From IMG/VR virus record IMGVR_UViG_3300012944_000024, positions 34,408-98,407 of that record: DNA of 64,000 nt. One strand, given 5' to 3'. Under the pieces are notes generated by a model. The model worked only from the letters and a program-made list of their open reading frames with translations, had not been told where the DNA came from and did no database searches. A program made the position numbers and the translations under genes. The stretch is from a virus. Shown one piece after another: positions 29,487 to 47,751 of this stretch. How positions within the stretch are numbered: the stretch's first letter is position 1; every line of letters begins with the position of its first letter.

Positions 29487-31379
29487 CTACGTGCCCGGCC
29501 CGCTATCGCTCGCCGTCTTGCCGTCCTCCTCGCCCCCACCCCCGAAGGGGGGCTTGCTCGCACCGAACTTCGGCGGCGCAGCGCCGGGCGGCTTCGGAGC
29601 CCCCGGGGTACCCGGCTTGCCCCCCGCCGACGCAGCAGCCGCGTCGGCGGCGTCCTTGTTGGCCTGCTGCTGCTTGGCGTCGTCGTCGGAGCCGTCCTTC
29701 TGCACTCGCTCCCACTCGTCGCCCCCCTCGATCCCGTAGAGCAGCGAGGCCTGCTCGACGCTCGTCTGCTGCGAGAGGACCGCCTTGCCCCCGTTGGCGG
29801 TGGTCAGGGCGGTGATCCCCTGGGACTGGTCCATCGGGGTCGGGGGGAAGTAGTTGGGCCAGTCGAGCTCGACGTCGCCGCCCTGCCCGACCGCCTGGTC
29901 GACGCGCGTGACCGTCTGAACCGGCTTGCCCTGCTCGTCGACAGCAGGCTTCTCCAGCCCCGTCTCCGGATCGGTCTCCTTCTGGGCCGTCTTGACGATC
30001 TTCTGCGGCAGGTTGACGAAGAGCTGGATCGTCTTGGGGACGTCGATCGTCTTGTCCGGGTCGTCGGGGTCGGGCTGCTTGACGTAGATCGTCACCGGCG
30101 CGCCCGTCTTGAGCTGCGCGACCTCGATCATCTGCTCGAGGATGCGCTGCAGCACGCCGCCGTACTGGGCGCGGAGGATCTCACACCGCCCCAGCATGGG
30201 CTGGAAGATCGTCTTGAGCGCCACGGAGCTCACGCCCTGCGCGGCGATCTCGCTGGGGTCGGGCACCACGCACTGCGCGACCTCGAGCGCGCTGCGGCGC
30301 TTCTCGTTGAAGAGCTTCACCCCCGCGTCGAGCGACTGGCCCGTGAGTTCGAGGTACTCCGCCGCGCCCGCCTCGCCGACGTTGAGGGTGTGGTCGCTCC
30401 CGGTCCCGATGGCGCCGAAGATCTCCGCGTCCGTCTTGAGCACCAGGGTGGGGTCGAGGTTCAAGACCGCGCCCTTGGAGATGACGCTGAGCAGGATGTC
30501 GAGCACGTCGAAGTTCTCGTAGAGCCCCTCGTAGTCGGGCAGCCCGTCAATCCCCTCGGCGGGGATGTTCTGCACCCAGTTGCAGTGGCAGAAGCCGTCC
30601 TCGTGGGTGATCGATTTGCTCGGATCGGGGATCCACGCGGGCTCGACGTTCGCGCGATAGAGCTGCGGGACGAAGAGGACGTCGTCGTCCTCGGTCCAGT
30701 CGCGCCGGTGCCAGTACCAGTTGCGGACAAACCGGCGCGCCACCCCGTCCCACTCGTCCTGCGGGTAGAGGTAGACCTCCGAGATGTGCCGCGCGACCAG
30801 CTCCTCACGATCGTCCCACTCGTGCACGAAGAGATACTTGCCGTTGTGGACCTCGACGCGCGGGCGCCCCTTGCGGTCGTAGCACCAGCTGATCCCCACC
30901 GTCCCCACGCTGCCGCCGAGGTTGCGCGCCCGGATCATCTTCGTCTCGAGGTTGCTCGCCTTGATCAGCGCGGCGGCGAAAGCCTGCGTGTCCCCGTCGC
31001 CCTCGACCCGGATGGACGGGAAGCGCTGCGACCCGAAGACCATGTTGGTGAAGGAGCCGACGATCACCTTCGCGAGTCGGTAGGGAGCGGAGGGGCGGCG
31101 CGCCCGCAAGGGCACCATGAAGGGGGCAACCTCCTGGGTGATGAGGGGCTGGGAGACGAGCGCGCCCGGCCCGCTGATCTGCAAGACGCGACCGTCGAAG
31201 TCGTAGTTCTTGCCGTCGTGCTGGCAGCAGGTCTCGTAGCTTTGCCGCCGGTCGAGCTCCTGGTAGCGCGGGCTCGAGAGCAGCGAGGAGGCTCGAAACC
31301 CCGTCGGCATCCCCGTGGATTGCAGCCGCTTGCCGAACGCGGCTCCGTTGAACGGCTGCGAGGTCTCGCCGGGGGGCAT
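29487..31379 (-). CDS. Portal protein
   Basis: A 630-residue protein with the length and order expected for a portal: after terminase and before MuF, scaffold and capsid. The body contains the mixed alpha/beta clip and wing regions ('YLFVHEWDDREELVARHISE', 'FDVLDILLSVISKGAVLNLD'), a long helix ('QPMLGRCEILRAQYGGVLQR') and a disordered Ala/Gly/Pro-rich C-terminal tail of about 70 residues. The portal forms the dodecameric DNA entry ring. Confidence 0.8.
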   Translation of the reverse strand: MPPGETSQPFNGAAFGKRLQSTGMPTGFRASSLLSSPRYQELDRRQSYETCCQHDGKNYDFDGRVLQISGPGALVSQPLITQEVAPFMVPLRARRPSAPYRLAKVIVGSFTNMVFGSQRFPSIRVEGDGDTQAFAAALIKASNLETKMIRARNLGGSVGTVGISWCYDRKGRPRVEVHNGKYLFVHEWDDREELVARHISEVYLYPQDEWDGVARRFVRNWYWHRRDWTEDDDVLFVPQLYRANVEPAWIPDPSKSITHEDGFCHCNWVQNIPAEGIDGLPDYEGLYENFDVLDILLSVISKGAVLNLDPTLVLKTDAEIFGAIGTGSDHTLNVGEAGAAEYLELTGQSLDAGVKLFNEKRRSALEVAQCVVPDPSEIAAQGVSSVALKTIFQPMLGRCEILRAQYGGVLQRILEQMIEVAQLKTGAPVTIYVKQPDPDDPDKTIDVPKTIQLFVNLPQKIVKTAQKETDPETGLEKPAVDEQGKPVQTVTRVDQAVGQGGDVELDWPNYFPPTPMDQSQGITALTTANGGKAVLSQQTSVEQASLLYGIEGGDEWERVQKDGSDDDAKQQQANKDAADAAAASAGGKPGTPGAPKPPGAAPPKFGASKPPFGGGGEEDGKTASDSGPGT

Positions 31380-31385
31380 CGCGCG

Positions 31386-31631
31386 TCAGCTTCGCACGCC
31401 AGCCCGCGCGCGCGCGATCCGGTCCTCCCACGATCCCTCAAGCGGTGGGGTCGGGGGTGGGGGAGGGGGGCGGGGGGATGGGCCGCGCAGGGCCATCCCC
31501 CCGCCCTCCGCAGTGAGCGAGAAGACCATCTCGAACTCCGGCTCGGGCGCTGGGAACCCGGCCTGCCGGCGCGGCTCGATCCGCTCTCCGATCTCCTTGA
31601 ACACGCGACCGATGCGATCTCGCAGCCCCAT
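31386..31631 (-). CDS. Small protein upstream of portal
   Basis: An 81-residue protein, ATG 31631 overlapping the stop of the fibre gene (ATGA). It is basic at the N-terminus ('MGLRDRIGRVFKEIGERIEP') with a Pro-rich middle. A half copy of the dispersed palindrome (GGGAACCCG at 31552-31560) lies inside and is read as a Gly-Phe-Pro segment. Function unknown. Confidence 0.55.
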   Translation of the reverse strand: MGLRDRIGRVFKEIGERIEPRRQAGFPAPEPEFEMVFSLTAEGGGMALRGPSPRPPPPPPTPPLEGSWEDRIARARAGVRS

Positions 31632-34240
31632 CAGTTGATCACGATCTCGCCCCACACCGTCGCGTCGGTGGCGGCCCCGATCGAGCCCCCCACGTTCGGA
31701 ACGAGCGCGGAGACGCACCCGGGGGTGGTCGAGTTGTTGAAGCTCACGATGCTGGTCGACGTGTTGAACACCGTGTCAGACGACTCGGTGAGGATGGTGG
31801 GGATGGCCACCGTGGAGACCACCCCGCCGACGTTCTTCACCGTCGTGATCGTCTCCTCGTAATACGTGTCGCCCACGTTGGCCGATCCCGCCGCGGTCAC
31901 GACGCGCGCGAGAAAGTGGCAGTGCACCTCCGCGTTCGACCCCGTGGGGAGCGTGAAGCGCGAGACCGCGGTGAGGGACCCGAAGCTGCCGCTCATCCTC
32001 CCGTACTGGGCGAACTGGTCCTCGTTGGCGACCTGCGTGTTGCGCGCCCCGCTGCCGGTGCGCACGACCGTGTAGGCACTGTTGGTGCCCGAGTGCCCGG
32101 TGACCAGGCTCGGGAAGACGGTGATGTTCGTCGTGCTGTCGCCGGAGTAGAGGCTCAGGCTCCCGCCGTTCGCGGCGGTGGTCCCGAGCCCGGGGAGGAT
32201 CAGCAGGTTGCCCCCCGTCACGTGGGTGGTGGCGCTCCCGAACGCGTCCGCTCCCTTGAGCGTGAGGGTCCCGGTCGTCGAGTCGCTCGTCGCCGCGTCG
32301 ATCCCGAAGATGTGGGAGTTGGTGTCGGGCTGGAAGGTGATCTTCTGGCTCGTCGAGAGCAGCCCGGTCGGCAGGAGAAAGAGCTGGCGCGCCCCGTCGC
32401 CCGTCTCGAGCTCCACCGTCCCGGTCGTCCCCGCGCCCGTCGCCGCGCCGCCCGCGAGGATCACGCCGCCGCCGTTGGTGGTGCCGGTGCCGCCCTGCTG
32501 GGCCTGCACCACGATGTTCGCGCCGCTCACCCCCGCGCCCGCTCGGTCCTCGGTGATCGTCGGGCTCGTGACGGTGGAGGCCCAGTCGAGCTCCCCCGCC
32601 TTGATCGCCACCACGCTGCCCGACCCCGTGAGGGTCGAGACCACGTTCGCGTTGATCGCCCCCACCGCGTCGCCCGCGAGGCTGGGGAGGTTGGCGACCG
32701 GCAGGGTCCCGGTCACCCACCCCGAGCCGCCCGCGAGGTTGAGGGCCGAGTAGGTGAGCGCGCTCGCGCCCGAGACGTACGGCCCGTTGCCAGTAACGAG
32801 CGAGCCCGCCGCCGGGACGCTCGCGCCGTTGATCTTCGTGTTGGTGACCGTCCCCGCCCCATTGACGCTCGCGTCGCCCGTGAAGCTGTTCCAGAGCGCG
32901 ACCCCCCCGTTGCTCTGCAGCACCTGCCCATTCGCGCCCGCCGTCAACCGCGCGAGGGCGAGCGAGCCCGTCGCGCTCGCGAGAGGGGCGGCGACCGTCA
33001 CGCTCGACGCGGCGGTGATGAGCCCCTTGCCGTTGACCGAGAAGACCGGAATGGTCGACGAGGTCCCGAACGAGCCGGTCGTGGCGTTCACGGTCGCGAG
33101 CGTCAGGGCCCCCGTCGCCCCGAGCGTCGCGTCCCCCGAGACCGTCTCGGCCGCTGGATCCGCGGCCGTCTGGCCGACGAGGATCTGCGTGTTGCCGAGC
33201 ACCACGCCCGCCACGTTGCTCGTCCCCTCGCCGATCACGACCCCGTGGGCGGTGAGGGTGGTGAGGCCGGTCCCGCCCTTGGCGGGCGTCAGGACGCCCG
33301 TCGCCGATCCGAGCGCCGCGGCGACCGTGTTGGTGGTGACGGCGGTGATGAGACCCTTGGCGTTGACCGTGAAGGACGGGATGAGGGTCGCGGATCCGAA
33401 CGTCCCGACGTTGCCGTTCACCGTCGCAAGCGTCAGGGGCAGGGAGCTACCCGATAGCGCCCCGATCGTCGCGTCCCCGTTCACCCCGACCGCGGCCGCG
33501 TTGAGCGAGCCTGTGGCCGAGTACCAGAGGCCCGTCCCGGTCACGCTGGTCCCCGAGACCGCCGCGGTAGTGACGGCGGTGACCAAGCCCTTGGCGTTGA
33601 CCGTGACGACCGGGATGGTGGTGGTGTTGCCGAACGTCCCCGTCGTCGCGTTGACCGTCGCGAGCGTCAAGGGGAGGTTCGAGCCGCTGAGCGCCCCCAG
33701 CGTCCCATCCCCCGAGAGCGAGACCGCCGCGCCATTGAGGGTCCCGCCGGCCGAGTACCAGATCCCGGTCCCGGTCACGCTGCTCCCCCCGCCCCCGCCG
33801 CACGTCCCCCACGAGTAGATCCCGCCGGTCGCGGTGAGGCACCCATTGGTGGTGGCGACCCCGGTGAGGGTGGGGATCGTGATCGCTGCGAGCCCCGCGT
33901 CGACGTAGCCCTTGATCGCGAAGTCGTTCGCCCCGACCGGCGCGAGCCCGCGCACGTTCACGAACGCGGAGAGCGCGGCGTTGCGAGCCTCGATCACGCC
34001 CGCGTTGTTCGAGAGCTGCGGGCCCGTGGGGGCCGCGAGCTGCCACGTCGCCGAGGTCGTCCCGTTGCTCGAGGTGAAGCTAGGCGCCGCCGCGATCCCC
34101 CAGTGCGAGAGGAGCGAACCGTTGGTGCTGACGAACCGCGGCGCGCCAGACACCTCGCCCCACGTGACCGTCTGGGCGAAGAGCTGCGCGGACCAGCAGA
34201 GGACCAGCAGCGTGGAGAGCAGGGCGACGAGCTTCTTCAT
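31631..34240 (-). CDS. Exported phage-tail-repeat fibre protein
   Basis: An 869-residue protein. Residues 1-23 (MKKLVALLSTLLVLCWSAQL, ending FAQ) form a Sec signal peptide, unusual for a virion fibre. Three long repeats of the form 'LTLATVN-TGTFG-ST-IP-TVNAKGLVTAV' (residues about 180-420) are typical of tail fibres, and the C-terminus (700-869) is a beta-rich tip domain. A 'NLAGG-G-VTGTLP' motif is shared with the lipoprotein fibre at 41972. It is followed by the portal-region genes. Either fibres are assembled outside the cytoplasm or this is a surface protein built from fibre modules. Confidence 0.7.
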   Translation of the reverse strand: MKKLVALLSTLLVLCWSAQLFAQTVTWGEVSGAPRFVSTNGSLLSHWGIAAAPSFTSSNGTTSATWQLAAPTGPQLSNNAGVIEARNAALSAFVNVRGLAPVGANDFAIKGYVDAGLAAITIPTLTGVATTNGCLTATGGIYSWGTCGGGGGSSVTGTGIWYSAGGTLNGAAVSLSGDGTLGALSGSNLPLTLATVNATTGTFGNTTTIPVVTVNAKGLVTAVTTAAVSGTSVTGTGLWYSATGSLNAAAVGVNGDATIGALSGSSLPLTLATVNGNVGTFGSATLIPSFTVNAKGLITAVTTNTVAAALGSATGVLTPAKGGTGLTTLTAHGVVIGEGTSNVAGVVLGNTQILVGQTAADPAAETVSGDATLGATGALTLATVNATTGSFGTSSTIPVFSVNGKGLITAASSVTVAAPLASATGSLALARLTAGANGQVLQSNGGVALWNSFTGDASVNGAGTVTNTKINGASVPAAGSLVTGNGPYVSGASALTYSALNLAGGSGWVTGTLPVANLPSLAGDAVGAINANVVSTLTGSGSVVAIKAGELDWASTVTSPTITEDRAGAGVSGANIVVQAQQGGTGTTNGGGVILAGGAATGAGTTGTVELETGDGARQLFLLPTGLLSTSQKITFQPDTNSHIFGIDAATSDSTTGTLTLKGADAFGSATTHVTGGNLLILPGLGTTAANGGSLSLYSGDSTTNITVFPSLVTGHSGTNSAYTVVRTGSGARNTQVANEDQFAQYGRMSGSFGSLTAVSRFTLPTGSNAEVHCHFLARVVTAAGSANVGDTYYEETITTVKNVGGVVSTVAIPTILTESSDTVFNTSTSIVSFNNSTTPGCVSALVPNVGGSIGAATDATVWGEIVIN

Positions 34241-34638
34241 GGGACAGGCACCGCGTAGATGGCGAGGATCTTGAGCGACCCCGACGTCGCCCCGGCGACG
34301 GTCGCGAGGAAGAACGACCAGACGACCGACGTGTCGTTGCCGCCGCCGGCCACCAGGGCGAGCGTGTCGAGGTAGTCGAGCCACGCCTCCATCAGCACCG
34401 CCCAGGTGCTGCTGCCGCCCGATTGCTTCACGCCCGGCGAGATGGTGCTGCTGGGCGGATCGTCGATGACGGCGAACGTGACGGTCGAGGCCGAGGTGAT
34501 GATCCCCTTGCCGTTGACGGAGAAGACGGGGATGGTCGACGTCGTGCCAAACGTGACGGGTGCGGCCTGCGCGAGCAGCTGCGCCGGCCAGCAGAGGACC
34601 AGTAGGGCGGTGGTGAGCGCGAGCAGGTTCTTCTTCAT
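34237..34638 (-). CDS. Chimeric exported mini-fibre protein
   Basis: A 133-residue protein. It opens with MKKNLLALTTALLVLCWPAQ, almost the same signal peptide as the next gene. Residues 28-50 ('FGTTSTIPVFSVNGKGIITS') are one tail-fibre repeat. Residues about 55-133 ('VIDDPPSS', 'TWAVLMEAWLDYLD', 'IYAVPVP') match the upstream 264-residue gene in shortened form. It is therefore a fusion of parts of its two neighbours. It overlaps both by ATGA. A 27-base identical repeat (34232-34258 and 34630-34656) spans both start regions. Confidence 0.75.
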   Translation of the reverse strand: MKKNLLALTTALLVLCWPAQLLAQAAPVTFGTTSTIPVFSVNGKGIITSASTVTFAVIDDPPSSTISPGVKQSGGSSTWAVLMEAWLDYLDTLALVAGGGNDTSVVWSFFLATVAGATSGSLKILAIYAVPVP

Positions 34639-35429
34639 GGGACAGGCACCGCGTAGGAGATGAGCACCGTGAGCGAGCCCAAGGTCGCGCCCACCACGGT
34701 CGCGCGGACGGGCGCGTTGACCAGGGCGACGAAGTCGTCGGGGTCGAGATCGTAGACCGTACCGGCCGCGCACGAGACCACGTCGATCGCGGGGGGCGGG
34801 CCCGCGCCGGTCGCCGGGAGCAGGATGGGACCACTAGCCTGGTCAAGCTTGAGCGTCCCCGCATCGAACGGGGTATCGACGCGCACCTTGCCGCCCTTGA
34901 AGACCGCCCCCGCCGGCACGCTCGACGCGCTCGACGTGGTCGTGTGCGAGACGACGAACTTGATCGTCGTGTCCGTCCCCCCCCCTCCCCCGCCACCCGT
35001 GAGCGAGTCGAGGTAGTTGAGCCACGCCTCCATGATGACCGCCCAGCCGCGGCGCTGGCCGAGGAAGGTGAGGGCCGCGGCCACGGCGGTGAAGGCGGGG
35101 ATGATCCGTCCGCTCGCGCGATTCACCCCGAAGCAGAGCGAGTGGGTCGCGGTCTGCTCGCCCGACACGTCGAAGACGTCGAGACGGATCTCGACCATGT
35201 CGGTCGTGTCGGGCACCCACGTCCACGTCGGGGTCGCGCCGCTCTGCACCACCCCCGGGCCGAGCGCACTCGAAGGCGGCGCGTCGATGACCGTGAAGAC
35301 CCACTTCGCGACGTTCGCGTCGTCGTCGTTGGAGACGACCACGGGCGTCCCGGTGACCCCGTAGAGGGCCTGGCCGGGCACGCCGACGTTGGCCCCTTGG
35401 ACGAACTGGATGAGCGCTGCGACCGTCAC
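34635..35429 (-). CDS. Beta-rich fibre-module protein
   Basis: A 264-residue protein from GTG 35429. It has no signal peptide. Segments 'VIDAPPSSALGPGVVQSG', 'GWAVIMEAWLNYLDSLTGGG' and 'LISYAVPVP' recur in the chimeric gene that follows. The middle has an Ig-like pattern ('WVPDTTDMVEIRLDVFDVSG'). It appears to be a fibre or fibre-chaperone module. No catalytic motif is visible. Confidence 0.6.
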   Translation of the reverse strand: MTVAALIQFVQGANVGVPGQALYGVTGTPVVVSNDDDANVAKWVFTVIDAPPSSALGPGVVQSGATPTWTWVPDTTDMVEIRLDVFDVSGEQTATHSLCFGVNRASGRIIPAFTAVAAALTFLGQRRGWAVIMEAWLNYLDSLTGGGGGGGTDTTIKFVVSHTTTSSASSVPAGAVFKGGKVRVDTPFDAGTLKLDQASGPILLPATGAGPPPAIDVVSCAAGTVYDLDPDDFVALVNAPVRATVVGATLGSLTVLISYAVPVP

Positions 35430-35444
35430 CGCGGGCCGCCCCGC

Positions 35445-35927
35445 TCAGGTCCCGACCGTCGTGAGGTCGGGGCCCATCCCGATGTTGTACGTCCCAGCGA
35501 CCGCAGCGCCCGGATCGGTCATCACCAGCATCACGTCGATCGAGTCGCTCGCCGCGCCCGGCGGGTTGGACGCGTTGCCCAGGACGTTCGCCGCGTTGCT
35601 CACCGGCTCGATGAGCGCGGCGATGTCGAAGAAGGCGAGCTGGTTGGGTTTGATGGAGAGGGCAGTGTCGTTGACCTTGAACCAGTGCTTCAGCCGTTTC
35701 TCCCAGACGTAGAGATCGCCGTTGAGCGCGACCGGCGAGCCTGCCGTGGTGGTCCACCCGACCACGATCCGCTGCACCGGCCACCCGACGATGTCGCGGA
35801 TCTTGCACGACATCACGTTGTCCGCGGTGGCGCTGGGGGCGGTCGTGGTGGGGACGGCGTCGCCCCCCAGCACGGGGGGCGGGGCGGAGCCGCCCTTCTG
35901 ACGAGAGAACGTCTTGTGGAAGCGCAC
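35445..35927 (-). CDS. Virion-associated protein, unrecognised
   Basis: A 160-residue protein from GTG 35927. After a basic, low-complexity N-terminus it has beta strands ('DIVGWPVQRIVVGWTTTAGS', 'GDLYVWEKRLKHWFKVND') and no signal peptide. It precedes the fibre modules and probably belongs with them. Its stop is 15 bases from the next start. Confidence 0.55.
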   Translation of the reverse strand: MRFHKTFSRQKGGSAPPPVLGGDAVPTTTAPSATADNVMSCKIRDIVGWPVQRIVVGWTTTAGSPVALNGDLYVWEKRLKHWFKVNDTALSIKPNQLAFFDIAALIEPVSNAANVLGNASNPPGAASDSIDVMLVMTDPGAAVAGTYNIGMGPDLTTVGT

Positions 35928-35971
35928 GCGCCCACGCTACGCGGGCGTGGCGAGCACGCGCACCCTTCTCG

Positions 35972-36544
35972 CTACCCGCTCTGGCTCACCGCGCACCAGG
36001 CGACCCGAAGCCCCGCGGCGGCGCCGTAGAGGGCGCACGAGAAGAACCCCTCGCCCGGCACGTTCAGGTGGCCGCCCGCGTAGACCGTCCAGCCGCCCTC
36101 CTCATCCATCGGGCCGAGCTGGGCGACGTCGACGCGGGTGTCCTCGGCCGGGGCGAAGCCGCCCGAGTGCGCGCCCGGCTGGCCCGACTCGGCGGCGATC
36201 TGGATCGCGCCCGAGAGCTTGCCGCCCGAGAGCAGGAAGGGGAGCACCTCGATATCGGGGACGAGGCGCACCGCCACGTTGAGCCGACCGGAGCCGGGAA
36301 CGTACGAGGGGGAGGCGAAGAGGATGATCGGGCAGTGCATCTTCGGCAGCGACGCGGAGAGCGGCCACCCCGACCCCCACGCGCGCCGGTAGTAGCCGCC
36401 CACCGCGCTTCGATGCAGGTGCTCGGGTTCGATCGGCAGCGTGATCGCCTTGCGCGCGCGGATCAAGTGCGCGACCTCGGGCTCGATCAACGCCCCCTCC
36501 CAGTACTCGTCCTTCGGGTCGTAGATGACGACGTGTTTGCTCAT
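35972..36544 (-). CDS. Virion or baseplate accessory protein, unrecognised
   Basis: A 190-residue protein starting MSKHVVIYDPKDEYWEGALI, coupled by ATGA to the transglycosylase gene. The sequence alternates strands and Gly/Pro turns, with 'YVPGSGRLNVAVRLVPDIEV' and 'GHLNVPGEGFFSCALYGAAA'. No signal peptide or known motif. It could be a fibre-binding or receptor-binding factor. Confidence 0.55.
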   Translation of the reverse strand: MSKHVVIYDPKDEYWEGALIEPEVAHLIRARKAITLPIEPEHLHRSAVGGYYRRAWGSGWPLSASLPKMHCPIILFASPSYVPGSGRLNVAVRLVPDIEVLPFLLSGGKLSGAIQIAAESGQPGAHSGGFAPAEDTRVDVAQLGPMDEEGGWTVYAGGHLNVPGEGFFSCALYGAAAGLRVAWCAVSQSG

Positions 36545-37344
36545 CGGGTCGTTTCCTCCGCCGCCAGCATGCCGGGGAATGGGTGGGCGCGGTAGTAGGC
36601 GAGGGCGCGGTCCTCGCGCGCACGCGCCGCCGAGGCCGGCCCGCTCCACTCGCCGGTGTAGTTTCGCAGGCTGCCGGTCTGACGGATCGAGGCGCGCGCC
36701 ATGTGCAGCGCGACCGCCGCGGCGATGAAGTCGTCCTCCTGCACCCACCCGTCGGTGTAGGCGATCTCGTCGTCGCGCATCCCAACGAAGGGAGCGCGGA
36801 TGTTGACCTCCCGCCACTCGCGACCCGGCTCCCATCCGAGCACCACCCCCGTGCCGAGATGCATCTGCCAGAGCGTCGAGGCGCGCCCGCTGTCGCACGA
36901 GCCGAACCGGAGCAGCCTCTTGCCCTCCAGGCTCGACCGCCACGCCTTGTCGGTGCAGTGGGCGACGTAGCCGCGGAAGCGCGACTCGTGGAAGGCGAGG
37001 CTCATCACCAGCAGGCCCGCGCGCGCCTTGGTGGGATCGTCCGCGTAGGGCGAGGGCTCGTCGTTGCGGTAGGCGGAGCCGTCCGGCTTGGGGACGGGGA
37101 AGCCGGTCGTGAGCAGCTCGGCCACGTCCCCGGCGACGACGCGCACGCGGTCCGCCACCGCCCCCTCCCCCTCCCCCTCCTGCGCCTCGAAGGCTGCGCA
37201 GCGGGCCCGCTCGGCGCCGCAATCGGGCAGCGCGAGCCAGGTGAGCCCAGCCCTCTCGAGGTAGTCGGCAAGCGGCTGGGAACCCGGGTTCCCAGAAGCG
37301 CCCGAGAGCAGCGCGGCGACGACGAATCCGAACGGCAGCCACAT
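36541..37344 (-). CDS. Exported lytic transglycosylase-like protein
   Basis: A 267-residue protein with a signal peptide (MWLPFGFVVAALLSGAS). Residues 113-128 ('VMSLAFHESRFRGYVA') carry a candidate catalytic Glu at 120, and residues 156-162 (STLWQMH) resemble the 'G-WQ' motif of SLT-fold lytic transglycosylases, which cut peptidoglycan. Cysteines at 42, 49, 130 and 150 could form periplasmic disulphides. The ribosome-binding site is a full 13-base match to the 16S tail. The dispersed palindrome follows the signal peptide and is read as GNPGSQ. It probably acts in lysis. Confidence 0.7.
   Translation of the reverse strand: MWLPFGFVVAALLSGASGNPGSQPLADYLERAGLTWLALPDCGAERARCAAFEAQEGEGEGAVADRVRVVAGDVAELLTTGFPVPKPDGSAYRNDEPSPYADDPTKARAGLLVMSLAFHESRFRGYVAHCTDKAWRSSLEGKRLLRFGSCDSGRASTLWQMHLGTGVVLGWEPGREWREVNIRAPFVGMRDDEIAYTDGWVQEDDFIAAAVALHMARASIRQTGSLRNYTGEWSGPASAARAREDRALAYYRAHPFPGMLAAEETTR
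37276..37295. repeat. Dispersed palindrome, copy 7
   Basis: A perfect 20-base copy within the transglycosylase gene, just after the signal-peptide region, so it is not at a gene end. Confidence 0.9.
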
Positions 37345-37357
37345 GGATCACCTCCTT
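37345..37357 (-). promoter_or_regulatory. Full-length Shine-Dalgarno site of the transglycosylase gene
   Basis: The coding strand reads AAGGAGGTGATCC immediately before ATG 37344. This is the complete 13-base complement of the bacterial 16S rRNA 3' tail, with the GGAGG core six bases from the start. It predicts very efficient initiation. Confidence 0.85.
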
Positions 37358-37383
37358 GGCCCGCGATGGCGGGGGGCTCGAGG

Positions 37384-38103
37384 TTATGCCGCGGCGGCGA
37401 GCGAGGCGACGTAGGGGAGCGAGCCGAGCGCGTCGGCCCGCATGGTGGCGGTGTCGAATCCGACCCCGGCGATCACGACGTTGTACCTCGTCTGCAGGTA
37501 CGAGGTCCCGCGGGTCGCGACGCGCCGGTCGCCGAGGTCGCTCGCGTAGCAATCGAAACCCGGCAGGTCGTAGAGGTCGAGCGCGTGGAGCGGGACCTGA
37601 AAGCCCACGTACAGCATCGCCCGCCACCCCGCCGCCCTCACCGTCGCCTGCCAGTCGATCGCGAACTTCGTCGCCGCCTGCGGGGTGTCGTCGATGTTCT
37701 CGAAGTCGAGGACGATGTGAGAGCCCTGCGGGTAGCCCACCATGAGCGCGTGGTCCACCGCGGCCTCGGCGTCCTCGACCCCCGAGTGGTGCGAGGGGCG
37801 CCACCCCGTGAATCCCGGCTCGGGCGAACGGACGTGCTGGAAAAGCAGGCACTGCCCGACGAGGTCGCAGATCCGCGCAAGCTCCTCGGCCCCGATGTCG
37901 CCCGCGCTGCGGTTGCGAGGCAATGGGACGTACCGCCCGACCCCGACCTTGCCCTCCGCGCGCAGCGCCGAGAGCACCGCGGCCGAGCAGCCCTGGTTGG
38001 TGTCGATCCATTCGCCGGGCGTGGCGAGCCGCGCCTCAAGCGTCACGATGCGCCTGCGCTTCGCGGTCGGGGTCTCGGGGCGCGTGATGTCGTCATCTCC
38101 CAC
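37384..38103 (-). CDS. DUF1906-type glycoside hydrolase-like endolysin
   Basis: A 239-residue protein from GTG 38103. It matches the DUF1906 (Rv2525c-like) TIM-barrel pattern: 'EWIDTNQGCSAAV' with Asp at 34, 'GVGRYVPLP', 'LFQHVRSP', 'YPQGSHIVLDFEN' with Asp133 and Glu135, and 'YVGFQVPL'. Members are found in phage endolysins and actinobacterial cell-wall proteins. It has no signal peptide, so export would need a holin. It belongs to the lysis-like cluster with the transglycosylase and the papain-like peptidase. Confidence 0.75.
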   Translation of the reverse strand: MGDDDITRPETPTAKRRRIVTLEARLATPGEWIDTNQGCSAAVLSALRAEGKVGVGRYVPLPRNRSAGDIGAEELARICDLVGQCLLFQHVRSPEPGFTGWRPSHHSGVEDAEAAVDHALMVGYPQGSHIVLDFENIDDTPQAATKFAIDWQATVRAAGWRAMLYVGFQVPLHALDLYDLPGFDCYASDLGDRRVATRGTSYLQTRYNVVIAGVGFDTATMRADALGSLPYVASLAAAA

Positions 38104-38105
38104 TC

Positions 38106-38276
38106 CTACTTCTTAGACGGATCCGCATCACTCGCCGTCCTTTCCACCCAGAGCGAGAAAGGTCTCCGCTCCGTCGGCTTCTTCGAAGCGTCCGGCTCAG
38201 CCGCGACGAACCCCTTCGCGCCCGGCCTCGCTTTGAATCGGCCCTCCCGCTTGCGGTGCTGATCTCGCCAGTCCAC
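38106..38276 (-). CDS. Small basic protein before the endolysin
   Basis: A 56-residue protein from GTG 38276, three bases after the stop of the lipoprotein gene and ending two bases before the endolysin start. It is strongly basic and hydrophilic (MDWRDQHRKREGRFKARPGA, ending 'DADPSKK'). No family is recognised. The tight fit between its neighbours is the main support. Confidence 0.55.
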   Translation of the reverse strand: MDWRDQHRKREGRFKARPGAKGFVAAEPDASKKPTERRPFSLWVERTASDADPSKK

Positions 38277-38279
38277 CGC

Positions 38280-38549
38280 TCAAGGCTGGCACGTCACGTT
38301 GCACGCCGCCAAGCCCGCGAGGTTCGCGGCGCCGAGCACGCAGGTCGGATCGGCCCGGAACTTGGTCGGCAGCGAGAAGGCTGAGGCGCAATTCGGATCG
38401 CTGCCGAGCGGGCAGCCGAGATCGCGCAGGTGCTGGCACGCCATCTGCGCGGCGGGCAGCGGGGCCGCGTCGCTCGCGTCGATCGGGACCGGCACGATCG
38501 CCGGCGGGGTGCAGCCGGCGACGAGGGCGAGCAGCAAAAGGATGCGCAT
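38280..38549 (-). CDS. Small cysteine-containing lipoprotein
   Basis: An 89-residue protein beginning MRILLLLALVAGCTPP, a short signal peptide with lipobox VAGC. The mature part has seven further cysteines after a Pro/Ala-rich spacer. The ATG overlaps the stop of the papain-like peptidase gene. It could be an outer-membrane partner in lysis (an Rz1-like spanin) or a surface shield against superinfection. The cysteine content is high for a spanin. Confidence 0.7.
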   Translation of the reverse strand: MRILLLLALVAGCTPPAIVPVPIDASDAAPLPAAQMACQHLRDLGCPLGSDPNCASAFSLPTKFRADPTCVLGAANLAGLAACNVTCQP

Positions 38550-39457
38550 CAGGAGACCTCTTGCTCGGGCAGGGGGTTGAGCAGATCGCGGTGCGCGGCG
38601 GAGAGCGAGAAGTCCGGCGCGATGGTGACGACGAGGAAGTCCGACGAGCCGAACTTGCCGCTCGCGGTGATGACGGAGTCGTCGAGCCACACGTACCCGC
38701 CGAAGCCGAACGAGACCCCCCACGACCCCGCGTTGAGCCACTGGCGCCGGCCCGCGACGGTCCGGAACCCCACGAGCGTGATGTCGTGGCCCCCGTAGCT
38801 CTTGCCGTTGGCGGGAATGGCGACGACGGGCGTCTCGGAGCTGCAGCTCTCGTACGCGTCGCCCACCGCGATCGCCATCGAGATGGCGTGGTTGGCGAGG
38901 AGGGCGGAGGCGCAGTCGTCGCTCCTCTGTTGGCCCTCGGAATCGATCTGGTACGCGCCCGTCACCTTCATCGCGATCGCGCGCGCGATCACGTCGACCG
39001 GCAGGGGGGTGTTGATCTTCCCGTCGTCGGCAGGCCAATCGCGCTCGAGCGGCACGCCGATGTCGTTGGTGAGGGCGCGCAGCGCCAAGCCCGGCACGCT
39101 GCCCTCGTCGAAGAGGACGCCCGTTCCCTCTTCCTCGCGCGCCAAGGCGTAGATCCCCTCCTCGCTCGGGTAGGGCATCGGGCCCGGGTTGGGCCGACCG
39201 TACTTCTGCACCTGCGCCTGCACGTGGCAGATGCGCGCGAGGCTCATCCCCACGCACTTGGAGGTCTGGCCCTGGTCGCGGATGCGGTCGACGTAGCCCG
39301 AGAGGTCGGCCGCCTGCGCGAGCCGCACCCGCGTGGCGCCGAAGAGGTGGCGCGTCGAGAAGACGTTCGGAGGCAGGGGGCCGACCTTGTGGCCCATCGA
39401 GTAGCCCCGGTTCGGCGTCACGAGCAGCGGGGCGGGGAGGATGATCTCAGCCGTCAT
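38549..39457 (-). CDS. Papain-like (C1A) cysteine peptidase
   Basis: A 302-residue protein. Residues 61-70 (DQGQTSKCVG) hold the oxyanion-hole Gln64 and the nucleophile Cys68. 'YGGHDITLVGF' gives His224 and 'WLNAGSWGVSFGFGGYVWL' gives Asn242, in the order and spacing of papain-family peptidases. There is no signal peptide or long propeptide. It lies between the beta-helix protein and a lipoprotein in the exported/lysis block. It could process the exported fibres, mature virion parts or attack the host. Such peptidases are rare in phages. Confidence 0.8.
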   Translation of the reverse strand: MTAEIILPAPLLVTPNRGYSMGHKVGPLPPNVFSTRHLFGATRVRLAQAADLSGYVDRIRDQGQTSKCVGMSLARICHVQAQVQKYGRPNPGPMPYPSEEGIYALAREEEGTGVLFDEGSVPGLALRALTNDIGVPLERDWPADDGKINTPLPVDVIARAIAMKVTGAYQIDSEGQQRSDDCASALLANHAISMAIAVGDAYESCSSETPVVAIPANGKSYGGHDITLVGFRTVAGRRQWLNAGSWGVSFGFGGYVWLDDSVITASGKFGSSDFLVVTIAPDFSLSAAHRDLLNPLPEQEVS

Positions 39458-39498
39458 GGTGGCGCGATCCTACGGGCGCGGGGGCGCGGCTCGCAACC

Positions 39499-40974
39499 TC
39501 AGTTGCAGAGCACCGCCCCGCTCGTCTGCTGCAGGCACCCGATGGTCGCACCGAAGGCGGTGTCGAGGTTGGCGGGGGTCGCCACCACCGGCGTGGTGAA
39601 GTTCTGGTAGCCCGTCGTGGTCGTCGTGTTGCCGACCCAGAAGAGCGTCCCGCTCTTCTGCAGGAACGTCGCCGCCGCCTTGCCCGCGCCGTTCTTGTAC
39701 ACCACCACCCCGTTGGGCAGGATCCCCAGGCTCCCGTTGCCCCAGAGGACCGGCTGGTTGGCGTTGTAGAGGCTCTGCAGCAGGTACAGGTTCGACCCCG
39801 GGTAGACGAGGATCCCTTCTGCCCTATCCAGGTAAATCTGACCCCAGAAGTTGTTGATCGAGCCTGGATACAAGCCAGGGGTCTGGCCGAAGATGGTATC
39901 GCCGTCGACCTGGCATCCGCCGCACGCGAGCGTGTTCTGCGCGCCCGTCGTCGGCTCTCCGAAGAGTCCGCCGAGCACATAGTTCTGCTGGCCACCGAAG
40001 CCCGCCGTCGAGTTGTTGAAGTCGACGCCCGCATGGGGTGCGCTGATGTTGTCGAGCACGGAGATCCCGTTGCTGCCCGGCACGATCTGCAGGTTGGAGA
40101 CGATCGCGTCCTCGACGAACGAGATTCCGTTGTTGGCGTTGACGCTGTCGGCGACGTTGTTGCCGATGGTGCAGTTGCGGATGAAGGTATTAGGGGCCGG
40201 GGAGTTGCCCCCTACGGTCGCGTAGACGTAGTCGTGCGCCTTGTTGAGCAGGATCGTCGGCGGCTGGTAGACCGTCACGGTGTCGCCAGACGCGATCACA
40301 ACCTCCGCGGCCGGGAAGGTGGTGGGCACGACGCCCAGTAGCGGCTGGGAGAAGGCCCACACGTCCCCGCTGCCCGGAGCGGCCCCGCTCGTCGTGACGT
40401 CGTAGTAGGGCCAGAAGTAGCTCGCGTGGGTGGTGTCGAAGATCAGCTCGTTGTAGGCGAGCGTCGTACCGATGGCGGCCTGATTCAGGCCGCTCGCGAA
40501 GACTCCGGAGCTGACTCCCGATCTTCCCGACCCAGTGAGCCCCGCGGTGAAGCTGCTCAGCGTCCCGGTGAAGACCGTGTTGGAGGTCCCCAGGATGCAG
40601 TTGATCAGGACGCCCGTCACCCCCGGGCCCGTCGACCACGCGAAGTCCATCGTCTCGTCGACGTCGGAGCTGAGGATGGAGATCGTCGCGTTGGCGAAGC
40701 CGTTGCCGGTGGCGAACCGCGGGCACGTCCCCCCCGCCCCGCACCCCCAACGATTCACGTAGAGCTCACTCCAGTTCTTGAGCGGTCCGTGCCTCGACCC
40801 CCCGCCCGCGCATCCGCAGATGTTGCCGTCATTGGCGTCGCTCGCGCACCCGCTCACGTTGCCGTGGTCGATGCAGTAGGCGACGCGGTACCAGTTCGGG
40901 TTGCGCGCCTCGGCCCCGAGAAACGACAGGCACGCGATGCAGAGGAGGACAGCGAGGCTCGTCTTTTTCATCAT
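39499..40974 (-). CDS. Exported beta-helix surface or tail-spike-like protein
   Basis: A 491-residue protein with signal peptide MMKKTSLAVLLCIACLSFLG (cleavage likely near AEA). A cysteine-rich segment follows (residues about 33-80, with Asp-Ala-Asn-Asp-Gly, a possible metal site). Residues 260-360 have the Asn/Gly/Val/Ile rhythm of a parallel beta-helix ('FIRNCTIGNNVADSVNANNG'). The C-terminus resembles a fibre tip. It overlaps its upstream neighbour by ATGA. An exported spike-like protein in a phage operon is unusual. Confidence 0.65.
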   Translation of the reverse strand: MMKKTSLAVLLCIACLSFLGAEARNPNWYRVAYCIDHGNVSGCASDANDGNICGCAGGGSRHGPLKNWSELYVNRWGCGAGGTCPRFATGNGFANATISILSSDVDETMDFAWSTGPGVTGVLINCILGTSNTVFTGTLSSFTAGLTGSGRSGVSSGVFASGLNQAAIGTTLAYNELIFDTTHASYFWPYYDVTTSGAAPGSGDVWAFSQPLLGVVPTTFPAAEVVIASGDTVTVYQPPTILLNKAHDYVYATVGGNSPAPNTFIRNCTIGNNVADSVNANNGISFVEDAIVSNLQIVPGSNGISVLDNISAPHAGVDFNNSTAGFGGQQNYVLGGLFGEPTTGAQNTLACGGCQVDGDTIFGQTPGLYPGSINNFWGQIYLDRAEGILVYPGSNLYLLQSLYNANQPVLWGNGSLGILPNGVVVYKNGAGKAAATFLQKSGTLFWVGNTTTTTGYQNFTTPVVATPANLDTAFGATIGCLQQTSGAVLCN

Positions 40975-41702
40975 GGTCCAACCCAGTAGTCCGCGGCCAC
41001 CGTGACGTTGATCGGGTGGGTGTCGTTGTTGCCGTTGCCATCGACGACCGCCACCACGTTGGTCCCCGAGGGCGCGTCCTGCACCGACAGGGCGAGCTGG
41101 CCCACCGCGCCCATCGCGGGCGCCCCCAGCGGGTCGCCATCGGGGTAGGCGACCGCGGTGATCGTGACAACCCCGCTGATGTTCTTCGCCGCCACCACCA
41201 TCACCTGCGACCAGTCGTCGCCGACCGCCAACCCCCCCTGCGCCGCCGTGCACCGGGCCGACGCGGTCACGCGGAAGCGGTAGCCGCGGTTGGCGGTCGC
41301 GCACGGCAGGTTGTAGGCGAACTGGTCGCCCGCCAGGTGCAGCGTCCCGCTCGCCGGAGCCACGCCGAGCGAGCCCGATGGGCCCGCGCCGGTCGGTCCC
41401 GCGGGGATGGCGGCGATGATGTCCGCTTCGAACTGCGCGAGCGCCCCCGCCGTCAGCGACTGGTAGACGAGCGCGTTGACCGCGTGGGATGCCGCGCTCG
41501 TCGCCTCCTGCGCGCGCGTGACCGTCACGGTCGGGCCCGTGCGGGCGGTCGCGATCATGATCTCCGAGTCGATGAGGAGCCGGAAGGTCCCGGTCGACGG
41601 CAGCCCCGCGTACCCGCCCGCGAGCACCACGGTCGCGTCGCCCATCCCGCAAGGCGCCGCGAGCACCAGGGGGCTCTGTTGGTTCGCGAATTGTTCCGTC
41701 AT
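40971..41702 (-). CDS. Fibre-module protein with tail-type N-terminus
   Basis: A 243-residue protein. Residues 38-70 ('GTFRLLIDSEIMIATARTGP', 'VTVTRAQEATSAASH') match a motif seen at baseplate-proximal ends of phage fibres, where a strand pair ends in 'V-RG-E-T-A--H'. The second half is beta-rich with cysteines in 'YNLPCATANRGYRFRV' and 'ARCTAAQGG'. No signal peptide. It is coupled to the exported beta-helix protein. Confidence 0.6.
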   Translation of the reverse strand: MTEQFANQQSPLVLAAPCGMGDATVVLAGGYAGLPSTGTFRLLIDSEIMIATARTGPTVTVTRAQEATSAASHAVNALVYQSLTAGALAQFEADIIAAIPAGPTGAGPSGSLGVAPASGTLHLAGDQFAYNLPCATANRGYRFRVTASARCTAAQGGLAVGDDWSQVMVVAAKNISGVVTITAVAYPDGDPLGAPAMGAVGQLALSVQDAPSGTNVVAVVDGNGNNDTHPINVTVAADYWVGP

Positions 41703-41756
41703 CGCTCGCCCCTCATGACGCGGAGCCTACACGCGCTCGACCCCTGCCGATTACTT

Positions 41757-41972
41757 CTAGCCGCCTCGTCGACGCAGCTCGCGCAGCGCGGCGAGGGAGG
41801 GATGGGAGCTGCCAAGCTCCTCCTTCGTGAGCAAGACGGTCTGGGCGATCGCGCCTTGCGCGCCGGGCGTGAAGGGAAAGGGGACCGGAGGCGCAGGGGT
41901 GGTGTCGACGAACCCCAGGACCATCGAGAGCCCGAGCGTGCTGGTGGGGGTGGCGAGTGTGGATCCGACCAT
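41757..41972 (-). CDS. Small Pro/Thr-rich protein
   Basis: A 71-residue protein coupled by ATGA to the lipoprotein fibre gene. It contains 'TPAPPVPFPFTPGAQGAIAQ' followed by a short charged helix and ends RELRRRGG. Function unknown. Its coupling suggests a fibre chaperone or capping peptide. Confidence 0.5.
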   Translation of the reverse strand: MVGSTLATPTSTLGLSMVLGFVDTTPAPPVPFPFTPGAQGAIAQTVLLTKEELGSSHPSLAALRELRRRGG

Positions 41973-43729
41973 CAGTTCACCACCACGTGGAACTCGGTCA
42001 GGCAGTCGACGGTGGCCGAGGCCACGTTGGCCACCTGGATGAGCAGGCTGGCCCCGCTGCTGGTCGCCGTCACCGCCGTCCCGCTCATGCTCGTGTCGGT
42101 GTCGGTGTCGAGCGCGGTCAGGGTGCCGACGATCGTGATGGTCCCGCCGATGTTGCGGTAGCTCGCGGTGCGCTTGCTCGCCCACGTGTCGCCGATCGCC
42201 CCCGCGGTCGGGGCGGTGATCGCGCGGCACGTCGTGTCGGCTGAGAAGTGACCGCTCGTCGCGGTCGCGGTCGCGTACGAGTAGACCGTCGTCGGGGTGG
42301 CGTCGGAGACGGTGCGCAGGGCGCCAGTGTCGGTGAGGACGAGGCCCGCCTGGCTGTTGACCGTCCCGGTCCCCACGGCGGCGAACTGGGTCGTCGCCCC
42401 CCCGCTCCCGCGCCACCTCGCCGCACCGGCGGACGAATAAAGGATCGCACCGCTGGCCGGGTTGGTGGTGGGGGCGGTGGTCGCGTCGTGGATCCCGATG
42501 ACCCCCGACCCCCCTCCGATCGAGAAGGTTCCCGACACCCCGCCGAAGAACTCCGCGTTGTGCGTGGACCCGTTCACCCCGAATTCGCGAATACCCGCGG
42601 CGGGCGCGAGGTAGTTGATGGCGGCGACCTTGCCGAAGTCGACCACGCCGGTGCCGGCAAAGAACTCCGCGACCGTGGTCGTATCCACCGCGATGTTGGT
42701 CGGACCGAGCCAAAACCCCCAGGTGGCCGCGCTAGTTCCTGTGAAGGCTCCGATCGCGGCGAGCCGCGTCGAGCTCGCGCGCGACAGGACGAACTGCGCT
42801 TCGGCCCCGGTCGACACCGGCGCGGCGAGCGCCACGACGAGCGAGCCCGGGGTGCCGGTCGCGGTAGAGGCGGCCCCGGCCCCGGGGGCCTGCGGGGTGA
42901 GGGTGAAACTACTCGGGTTGCTGCCGTTGGCCTGCTGCACCTGCGAGAGGCTGGGCGCCGCCCCCTGCACCCACTGCAGGTTGTTGGGGGTGACCGGGAT
43001 CGGCGAGGTCCCGCCGATCGCCCCGACCGTGTAGGCCCCCGGGGTGGAGGTCGAGCACGACACGTCCCCGCTGCACGAGGTCCACGCGCTGCCCGTCGCG
43101 CCCGAGTTTTCGACGAGCAGCTGCCCCGCCGTAGGAGTCGTCGCGCTGACCGCGTTGCCCTGGACCTTCGCGACCACGGCCGCCCCGGTCGTGCCGGTCA
43201 CGTCCCCGCCCATCGCCTGCGCGGCCTGGTTGCCCGTGGGCAGGGTGCCGGTGATCGATCCAGCTCCCCCCGCGAGGTTCACCGCCCCGGGCGCCCACGA
43301 GCTCCCGCCCCAGAGGACCGCGTTGCCCGTGCTGGGCGCGGTCGAGAGCAGCGAGCGCCCCTGCAGCCCGACGACCGTCTGCGAGGACGAGGTGCCCGAG
43401 AGGTCGCCCGCCGCGGTGAACCCGCTCGACGCCGCGCTCCACGAGTACGCCGAGCCCGACCACTGCAGGTTCGTGTTGGTCCCCGTCGGCCCGGGCACCG
43501 CGTGCCCCTGCAGCCCCGTGACGGTCGGGGCCGGGTAGGAGCCGCCGAGGTCGCCCGTCGCCGTCCCGACCGGGTAGGCGAATGGGTAGGAGGCCCCGAG
43601 CCTCGCGCCCGCATCGGAGAGCCCCGCGTCGACCGGCGCCCCGCCCCCCTTGCACCCACCCGCCGCGACCAGCGCGACGGTGAGCGCGACGGCCAGCGCG
43701 GAGATCCGTTTACTCGAGTAGGTAGCCAC
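41972..43729 (-). CDS. Lipoprotein with tail-fibre repeats
   Basis: A 585-residue protein from GTG 43729. Residues 1-26 form a signal peptide ending in the lipobox AAGGC, so it should be anchored to a membrane. Residues 55-220 contain three repeats of the pattern 'GDL-G-TV-GLQG' plus 'VNLAGGAGSITGTLP', also present in the fibre at 31631. A 'GASGAILYSS'-like knob region and a beta-rich C-terminal domain follow, as in phage fibre tips. A membrane-anchored fibre could block or modify phage receptors. It overlaps the upstream gene by 20 bases. Confidence 0.7.
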   Translation of the reverse strand: MATYSSKRISALAVALTVALVAAGGCKGGGAPVDAGLSDAGARLGASYPFAYPVGTATGDLGGSYPAPTVTGLQGHAVPGPTGTNTNLQWSGSAYSWSAASSGFTAAGDLSGTSSSQTVVGLQGRSLLSTAPSTGNAVLWGGSSWAPGAVNLAGGAGSITGTLPTGNQAAQAMGGDVTGTTGAAVVAKVQGNAVSATTPTAGQLLVENSGATGSAWTSCSGDVSCSTSTPGAYTVGAIGGTSPIPVTPNNLQWVQGAAPSLSQVQQANGSNPSSFTLTPQAPGAGAASTATGTPGSLVVALAAPVSTGAEAQFVLSRASSTRLAAIGAFTGTSAATWGFWLGPTNIAVDTTTVAEFFAGTGVVDFGKVAAINYLAPAAGIREFGVNGSTHNAEFFGGVSGTFSIGGGSGVIGIHDATTAPTTNPASGAILYSSAGAARWRGSGGATTQFAAVGTGTVNSQAGLVLTDTGALRTVSDATPTTVYSYATATATSGHFSADTTCRAITAPTAGAIGDTWASKRTASYRNIGGTITIVGTLTALDTDTDTSMSGTAVTATSSGASLLIQVANVASATVDCLTEFHVVVN

Positions 43730-44321
43730 CGGCGCTCCCTCCGTTGATCCAGGTCAGCGAGACCCCGGCGCTCTGCGCCCCGGCGATCACGTAGTTCGCG
43801 GCAAACGCCGCGTTGTTCGGGGCGGGCTGCTCGAGCTGCACCCCAGCCGGACCGTTGGTGGTGATGGTGTGCGAGGCGAGTGAGGTGGAGGCGTCGTGCT
43901 GGACCGTGCACGCCTGCCCTGACGCGAGGACCGGGAGGTTGACGACCACGTTGCCCGGCCCCGTGTCGCACACGACCGTCTCGCCCGCGTTGGCGTTGTA
44001 GGGGGACGCGTGCGCCCCTCCCGTCCCATCCGCGTTCACTCGCACCACCACCGCGACCGCCGGGCCCGGGACGACCGGGACGGGGATCTGCACGATCGCG
44101 CGCGCCTGATCGAGCGGCAGGCCCTGGCCGCGCAAGCGCTGCTTGGTCGCCGCGGCGGCCTGCGCGACCGCCGCGCCCGCGTAGGGGACCAGGACCCCAC
44201 CCGCCGCGAGGATCCGCGCGATGTTCTGGTTCAGATCGTCGACCACCTTGCCCGCGGGCAGGCGGACCATCTGCCCACCCTGCGACATCGAGACCTCGTT
44301 GCTCAGGACGTACTTGGCCAC
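43710..44321 (-). CDS. Virion-type protein sharing an N-terminal domain with the gene at 26534
   Basis: A 203-residue protein from GTG 44321 with a good AGGGGGA ribosome site. The N-terminal 75 residues align with the head-region protein at 26534-27175 (see that entry). The C-terminal half is a beta domain ('GPGNVVVNLPVLASGQACTV', 'VSLTWINGGSAGGYLLE') resembling fibre head-binding regions. It would bring a distinct beta domain to the same docking site. No signal peptide. Confidence 0.6.
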   Translation of the reverse strand: MAKYVLSNEVSMSQGGQMVRLPAGKVVDDLNQNIARILAAGGVLVPYAGAAVAQAAAATKQRLRGQGLPLDQARAIVQIPVPVVPGPAVAVVVRVNADGTGGAHASPYNANAGETVVCDTGPGNVVVNLPVLASGQACTVQHDASTSLASHTITTNGPAGVQLEQPAPNNAAFAANYVIAGAQSAGVSLTWINGGSAGGYLLE

Positions 44322-44322
44322 G

Positions 44323-44793
44323 TCATCCCCCTATCGAATTGGTGACGTCGGGCTCGACCTCGATCTCCCCGACCTCGACGGTGAAGATGTTCCCCGCCCC
44401 ATCCTTGCCCTGCACGTCGTAGACGAGGCGCACGCGCCCATCCGGGAACCCGCGCGTCGCGATCGGCGGGATCGAGACCTGCGCCTGCCCGGCGGTCGCG
44501 ACCAGCAGGGCGAGCGACCCGCCCGCCGGCACGCTCGAGGGCGCGGTCGTGACCTGCGCGACCGCCAGCGGGTCGGGGTCGGAGACGGTCCGCTTGATCG
44601 TGCACCAGAGAAACCAGCCCGTGAGGTCCTGCGGGGCCATCGAGCCCCCCGGGGTCGTCTTGACCACCTGGACCGGGAAGATGAGCGAGTCGCCTCGGCG
44701 CATCCGGCGCCGGCGCGGACCGAAGCGCCGGCAGCACGGGTCTCGCCCGTCCTCCTCTTCCTCGAACCCGTCGTCTCGGTCCAGGCACCTCAC
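44323..44793 (-). CDS. Baseplate upper protein-like (BppU N-terminal) protein
   Basis: A 156-residue protein. Its core, 'RGDSLIFPVQVVKTTPGG' followed by 'PQDLTGWFLWCTIKRTV', matches a beta-sandwich module used at the N-terminus of baseplate and fibre attachment proteins (BppU type). A strand pair around 'VPAGGSLALLVATAGQAQVS' follows. GTG 44793 gives a charged N-terminus of 30 residues; ATG 44703 would remove it. The stop is one base from the next start. Confidence 0.6.
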   Translation of the reverse strand: MRCLDRDDGFEEEEDGRDPCCRRFGPRRRRMRRGDSLIFPVQVVKTTPGGSMAPQDLTGWFLWCTIKRTVSDPDPLAVAQVTTAPSSVPAGGSLALLVATAGQAQVSIPPIATRGFPDGRVRLVYDVQGKDGAGNIFTVEVGEIEVEPDVTNSIGG

Positions 44794-47112: not shown

Positions 47113-47751
47113 TCACCCAGCTTTGGCTTCGGGCTCCTCGACGCTCGCCCCATCGATCGCGCGCACCCCGCTCGCGCGGTCCGCGTCGCTCACCGGCTCC
47201 TCGTCGATCTCGAAGAGATCGTCGGGCACCTCGAGCAGCGCGGCGGTCTCGTGCCCCACGCTCTTGCGCAGGCGGCGGTCCGCCTCGCCCGGCAGCATCA
47301 GGGGGGCCCGGCCGGTGCGGTGGAAGTCGTCAGTCTCGCCCAGCGCGGCGGCGACGGCGGGGTCCTCGCGCAGCTTGCGCTTGAACTTCTCCTCCATCTG
47401 CCGGATGCGCTCGCGCGTCACGTTCATCAGCGCGCCCACCTCCTCGAGCGTCACCCCATCGCCGTCGCCATCCTTGCCGCCCGCCACGTCGAGCGCACAG
47501 GATTGCTCCATCGCCTCGAGGTTGGCGACGAGCCCGTCCAAGTCGGCGGCGGGGAAGTTGAGCTTCAGGCTCCCCGCCTTCGTGACGTCGAGGAACAGGT
47601 TCATCTTGCAGCTGACGAATGGGCAAGGGCGCGGCCCGTGGACGCAATCGGCTCGCGTCTCGGGCCGCGCGATCCCGCGCGGGTAGCTCGCCCCATCCTC
47701 CGACGCGATCGGCAGGCGTAGCGAGATCGTCCGGGGCCGCAAGATGGCCAC
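47113..47751 (-). CDS. Sigma-region-4-like transcription regulator
   Basis: A 212-residue protein from GTG 47751. Residues 40-50 (PRPCPFVSCKM) and 52-66 ('LFLDVTKAGSLKLNF') form a pattern I associate with a myxobacterial family in which a CPFVSC segment precedes a sigma-70 region-4 helix-turn-helix. Here residues 100-129 ('VTLEEVGALMNVTRERIRQM') form that helix-turn-helix and are followed by a basic stretch. No region-2 domain is present, so it cannot act as a complete sigma factor. It is the best candidate in the window to redirect host RNA polymerase or bind phage promoters. Confidence 0.75.
   Translation of the reverse strand: MAILRPRTISLRLPIASEDGASYPRGIARPETRADCVHGPRPCPFVSCKMNLFLDVTKAGSLKLNFPAADLDGLVANLEAMEQSCALDVAGGKDGDGDGVTLEEVGALMNVTRERIRQMEEKFKRKLREDPAVAAALGETDDFHRTGRAPLMLPGEADRRLRKSVGHETAALLEVPDDLFEIDEEPVSDADRASGVRAIDGASVEEPEAKAG

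Follow-up and report, generated by a model that had tools for sequence, protein, structure and literature searches.

A gene cassette between the terminase and portal genes of this phage encodes four proteins with export signals, and our best explanation, which we hold at just short of even confidence, is that these are tail fibres in an exported format that attach to virions at or after lysis. The window analysed is a stretch of 64,000 bases (positions 34408-98407 in a virus record of 98,407 bases), and nearly all of its genes are on the minus strand. The cassette belongs to the structural/lysis region, is flanked by phage genes on both sides and occupies the same place in related phages. The window also holds the terminase large subunit (52981-55659, split by an intein), the portal (29487-31379), a MuF-type head protein (27418-29121), the major capsid protein (21885-23543), a weakly matching sheath (16385-19504) and a baseplate wedge (4466-5590), and the phage looks like a contractile-tailed type.

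The four signal-bearing proteins are all encoded on the minus strand. fib31631 (31631..34240, 869 aa) starts at 34240 and has a Sec signal peptide at 34175-34240 (MKKLVALLSTLLVLCWSAQLFA, cleavage before Q). The much shorter fib34237 (34237..34638, 133 aa) starts at 34638 with a Sec signal peptide at 34570-34638 (MKKNLLALTTALLVLCWPAQLLA, also cleaved before Q), and fib39499 (39499..40974, 491 aa) starts at 40974 with one at 40906-40974 (MMKKTSLAVLLCIACLSFLGAEA, cleavage before R). Each of the three signals combines a start that includes Lys with a hydrophobic core and a site of the AxA type. The fourth protein, lip41972 (41972..43729, 585 aa), has a GTG start at 43729 and a lipoprotein signal (43655-43729) that ends in ...ALTVALVAAGG followed by C (Cys26) in a lipobox context. 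This lipobox was read by eye; the rule-based caller used for the signals picked a type I site three residues earlier.

The starts of fib31631, fib34237 and fib39499 form ATGA-type overlaps with the stop of the preceding gene, and the GTG of lip41972 has a Shine-Dalgarno sequence (cGGAGGg) 8 nt upstream, so the signals lie at true N-termini. The longest open reading frames from the mechanical scan are overlong for the first three, the real starts being those given above. Downstream starts that would omit the signals, which the first-pass annotation had raised as an alternative, were found with comparable support for none of the four proteins. The caller makes false calls on about 1% of random N-termini (5 of 519 internal ones), and among non-fibre open reading frames of at least 250 aa it marks 6 of 173. 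Signals on four out of four proteins are therefore far beyond chance. The earlier claim that these fibre-like proteins bear export signals, three of the Sec type and one of the lipoprotein type, is confirmed, and the signals are real and predicted to be functional. The first-pass annotation was also right to find this odd, since tail fibres usually have a signal-less N-terminus, which is absent from all four proteins.

Their fibre nature, judged by repeats or by homology to a known fibre body, was found for fib31631, fib34237 and lip41972. A fibre repeat of ~40 aa, which is also seen in Limnohabitans and Pelagibacter phage proteins, occurs three times in fib31631 and once in fib34237, while lip41972 matches fibre bodies of related phages (see below). 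fib34237 is a chimera of a signal, one repeat of its neighbour fib31631 and pieces of the gene at 34635-35429, and is a possible duplication remnant. The spike-like structure earlier ascribed to fib39499 found no such backing. This protein is Cys-rich (12 Cys in the mature part), had no family match and gave nothing useful in a PDB sequence search, and it is placed among the tail fibres by gene position only. No NCBIfam match was obtained for the fibres, and direct relatives were found neither in phages and plasmids by tblastn nor in IMG/VR with single-protein queries.

Two signal-less neighbours on the minus strand are of particular relevance to the fibres. The adaptor-domain protein ig34635 (34635..35429) has homologues in the relatives G001 (51% identity), G005 (45%) and G003 (36%). 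The fibre-like protein g40971 (40971..41702) matches the PHROG tail-fibre families phrog_6427 and phrog_8469, and its C-terminal part resembles the C-terminal part of lip41972. Models were too poor for a fold search, with a pLDDT of 44 for the shared C-terminal region and 31 for fib39499.

The remaining minus-strand genes of the cassette include a signal-less papain-like C1 peptidase (38549..39457; PF00112, E 4e-7) with PDB relatives and homologues in G001, G003 and G005. It adjoins a small Cys-rich lipoprotein (38280..38549), and a similar gene follows the C1 peptidase in the same three relatives. A DUF1906/Rv2525c-like glycoside hydrolase (37384..38103; PF08924, E 5e-11; phrog_291) is the probable endolysin. 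These three neighbours were identified correctly in the first-pass annotation; its transglycosylase (36541..37344) had no match in family searches and is listed here as a putative muralytic protein with a hydrophobic N-terminus, a perfect Shine-Dalgarno sequence and similar DNA in G003. Two conserved genes (35445-35927 and 35972-36544) have homologues at the same place in relatives, and two signal-less genes (43710-44321 and 44323-44793, the latter phrog_1084) head the cassette. The peptidase-lipoprotein gene pair (38280-39457) is itself kept in three relatives (L114:1326-2605, L115:9198-10477 and L116:6956-8187). Two further small Cys-containing proteins with lipoprotein-type signals and without family match are encoded at 49509-49823 and 50474-50773.

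Five relatives, among them G001, G002, G003 and G005, were retrieved from IMG/VR by searching with the capsid protein, whereas searches with the portal and the terminase yielded no close ones. In all of these relatives the terminase is followed by the fibre/lysis region and then the portal, and their portal proteins are 43-51% identical. In G001 (portal 48% identical) the 51%-identical homologue of ig34635 is directly followed, at the same locus, by three consecutive proteins with export signals, of 923 aa (fibA, with a lipobox-like site), 280 aa and about 311 aa. In G005, the adaptor domain is instead fused to a signal-less 797-aa fibre, and the shaft of this fibre gives matches to lip41972 (E 1e-12) and fib31631 (E 2e-7). 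G003 likewise has the adaptor domain fused within a signal-less 517-aa fibre, which matches lip41972 to its C-terminus (E 7e-6). No matches like those of G005 and G003 to lip41972 and fib31631 were seen in a shuffled-sequence control. Adjoining the 517-aa fibre, G003 encodes a protein of 882 aa that begins with a signal or an anchor, its N-terminus looking more anchor-like than cleavable, and G002 has a 1268-aa fibre-like protein without signal.

Within one phage group, the same fibre body thus exists in two formats: signal-less and fused to an adaptor, or signal-bearing and accompanied by a separate gene for the adaptor domain. Whether related phages keep the signals had been posed as a check at the outset, and the answer is divided, as G001 keeps three signal-bearing proteins whereas G003 and G005 carry the lip41972 body without signal. 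Classical adaptor-fused fibres, represented by phi14:2 gp97, phi17:2 gp54 and the G005 797-aa and G003 517-aa proteins, have fibre or spike bodies homologous to those of the exported format, but a signal-less adaptor at the N-terminus where the exported format has a Sec signal.

Evidence from virions comes from cultured marine phages. Fibre and pectate-lyase spike modules similar to the cassette are found in the Cellulophaga phages phi10:1 and phi19:1 (Assiduviridae) and phi18:3, phi19:3, phi46:3 and phi13:2 (Pachyviridae), where runs of 3-5 consecutive fibre/spike genes each encode a Sec signal peptide. Eleven of these fibre/spike proteins have an MS/MS-based structural annotation (phi10:1 gp091-094, phi19:1 gp101-104 and phi18:3 gp085-087; virion status taken from the record annotation), and all eleven have signal peptides, that of phi19:1 gp104 (MRNIVLILLFFNISFSFG) having been missed by the caller and read by eye. 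Some phages therefore seem to export their tail fibres and attach them late, as signal-bearing fibres are recorded as virion proteins in three of them. A spike body 44-49% identical to that of phi10:1 gp093 is present in phi17:2 and phi14:2, there with signal-less N-termini and again in structural proteins. They differ from the cassette in that the Cellulophaga phages have Bacteroidota hosts, that their modules were not found to match any of the four window proteins significantly in sequence, and that no inspected protein was called a lipoprotein. We regard them as analogues, the same kind of module with orthology to the four not demonstrated. Phage phi40:1 was considered as a further precedent and rejected, its fibres being without signal.

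The same combination recurs more widely. The ~40-aa fibre repeat was found at 80 IMG/VR loci; the N-terminus is intact at 76 of them, and about 12 of the 76 (9 lineages) carry a signal peptide. The count includes L043 and L079 (MKKLFSLLIVLISIKCFGQ from an upstream start), whose signals were recognised by eye, and omits the doubtful call L057. Several of the signal-bearing fibres adjoin wedge, head-closure, virion-structural or tail-fibre genes, and runs of consecutive signal-bearing proteins are common among them; one more case lies on a bacterial contig near a tape-measure gene. At least two Cys residues are present in 60% of 10 signal-bearing fibres and 17% of 58 others after removal of duplicates (rank test p 0.005), a difference that is confounded by host. 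In the cultured Acidobacteriota phage Tunturi_2, which infects Tunturiibacter, the structural region has consecutive signal-bearing tail-fibre and pectin-lyase proteins as in the cassette, with signals on gp12, gp13 (tail fiber), gp14 (pectin lyase) and gp16; unlike the phage studied here, its particle is podovirus-like. The Tunturi_2 paper reports no virion proteomics and makes no mention of signal peptides (PMC11924767). No description of signal peptides on tail fibres was found in open-licence texts, the flavophage papers being silent on them, and the class of signal-bearing tail fibres is thus recurrent and apparently undescribed in the open-licence literature.

In the explanation we prefer, the fibre bodies would be made late as Sec preproteins (one of them a lipoprotein), alongside the structural and lysis genes, and would leave the cytoplasm. 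The signal-less adaptor (34635-35429, perhaps with g40971) would remain on the particle, which is put together in the cytoplasm. The exported fibres would meet the released virions at lysis or later, attach to them and provide receptor-binding or adhesive fibres. This reading is favoured because of the signals, the swaps between exported and adaptor-fused N-termini, the analogues detected in virions and the position among structural and lysis genes. What we infer is that the signals are functional and undergo cleavage, and that the fibres join virions, as well as the time at which they do so. Disulfide formation is a possible benefit of export. A need for disulfides as the reason for export was rejected, as the Cys enrichment is host-confounded and the Bacteroidota-type examples are almost without Cys.

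Some points speak against attachment of exported fibres to virions. A lipid anchor would tether lip41972 to the membrane rather than leave it free for the virion, and a host-surface role is therefore at least as likely for this protein. Exported analogues could also merely co-purify with virions by binding to particles or debris, and we know of no mechanism that loads exported fibres onto a tailed virion. Filamentous-phage coat proteins do leave the cytoplasm via Sec before they join the particle, which is extruded through the membrane without lysis. The proposed Sec route is similar, but here it would serve a tailed virion released by lysis, and no sequence relation is claimed.

The first-pass annotation had instead proposed decoy or exclusion proteins on the host surface, or an appendage exported by the infected cell. 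Fibres displayed on or secreted from the infected cell could bind or mask the receptor as decoy or exclusion proteins, or act as surface adhesins, which we consider unlikely overall but still the second choice. The export signals fit such a role, for which the lipobox of lip41972 and the lipobox-like site in G001 fibA are genuine evidence, and so does the likeness between the C-terminal parts of lip41972 and the signal-less g40971, as an exported copy could therefore occupy the same receptor. Superinfection-exclusion lipoproteins of the T5 Llp type are small and are not fibres; lip41972 resembles them in that it is a lipoprotein encoded by a phage and may be located on the surface of the host. 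An export signal together with a lipobox, as in Llp/Cor-type proteins, is present in lip41972 only, the other three having type I signals, and with 585 aa and a place inside the structural region lip41972 is neither small nor outside the structural genes. The proposal as a whole is less favoured than attachment to virions because the genes belong to the structural/lysis region and not to an early or lysogeny region, no integrase match was found on the contig, several different fibres are encoded where one masking protein might be expected, and the analogues are recorded in virions. Detection of the proteins in virions with intact N-termini had been named beforehand as an observation that would count against surface display; of this, virion detection applies to the Cellulophaga analogues only.

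Two other mechanisms for surface display were rejected. No tyrosine integrase match pointing to display during lysogeny was found on the contig, which may be incomplete, and surface lipoproteins diversified by a DGR were discarded as the 98-kb record has no reverse transcriptase (PF00078) match.

It is improbable, in our estimate, that the hydrophobic segment at the N-terminus serves to anchor the protein in a membrane or in the virion, with no export and with fibres assembled normally in the cytoplasm. This would be compatible with the detection of the analogues in virions, and the N-terminus of the 882-aa protein of G003 does look more anchor-like than cleavable. However, unrelated phages repeatedly show AxA-type cleavage sites with Gln behind them, starts rich in Lys and a lipobox, none of which an anchor would require. 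We give still less weight to other late roles in host interaction, such as enzymes or adhesins released in the lysate that open capsule or matrix: the peptidase and hydrolase neighbours and the signal-bearing pectate-lyase-like spikes of other phages would suit them, but in Cellulophaga phages the pectate-lyase-like proteins have themselves been recorded as parts of virions, and the fibre bodies alternate with adaptor-fused forms. An artefact, whether from misplaced starts, faulty assembly or host genes included in a phage contig, might be suspected as fibre genes are repetitive, but it is very improbable and in the main refuted by the coupled starts and Shine-Dalgarno sequence, the false-call rate of about 1%, the same arrangement in G001 and the phage genes that flank the cassette.

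The general view is that tailed phages assemble in the cytoplasm. Extending the attachment of exported fibres beyond this phage, we suggest, with some reserve and below even confidence, that some tailed phages of Gram-negative hosts finish their virions outside it: Sec-exported fibres or spikes would mature in the envelope (e.g., by disulfide formation) and be loaded at lysis, and their bodies would shift in evolution between exported and adaptor-fused formats. If this is true, the assembly of virions ends with a step that has gone unrecognised and relies on the Sec pathway of the host, and in many uncultured phages the receptor-binding proteins are easily taken for secreted proteins of a host-like kind. 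Should the proteins be surface decoys instead, they would constitute a large new class of exclusion factors.

Several further features of the window were noted. The terminase intein (52981-55659) has Hint and homing-endonuclease domains and resembles inteins in helicase genes of enterobacterial and Vibrio phages; the relatives have no intein at this site. The C-terminal region of the MuF-type head protein (27418-29121) is weakly metallopeptidase-like (PF07737, E 0.004, below the cut-off) with a HEIGHH-like motif, and the protein is possibly an injected enzyme. A protein with a sigma-70 region 4 domain (47113-47751, E 3e-7) is possibly a phage sigma factor for late genes. Finally, a palindrome of 16-20 bp (cTGGGAACCCGGGTTCCCAg) is present in 13 copies in the window, against 0.04 expected, and in 21 copies in the whole record. 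It was not found in the five relatives nor, as a 20-mer, in other IMG/VR contigs. The copies (in the window at 496, 11251, 14884, 21859, 24527, 26238, 37278, 45048, 46826, 49485, 52813, 56519 and 61471) are mainly in gaps or close to gene starts, and the palindrome is perhaps the operator of a phage regulator.
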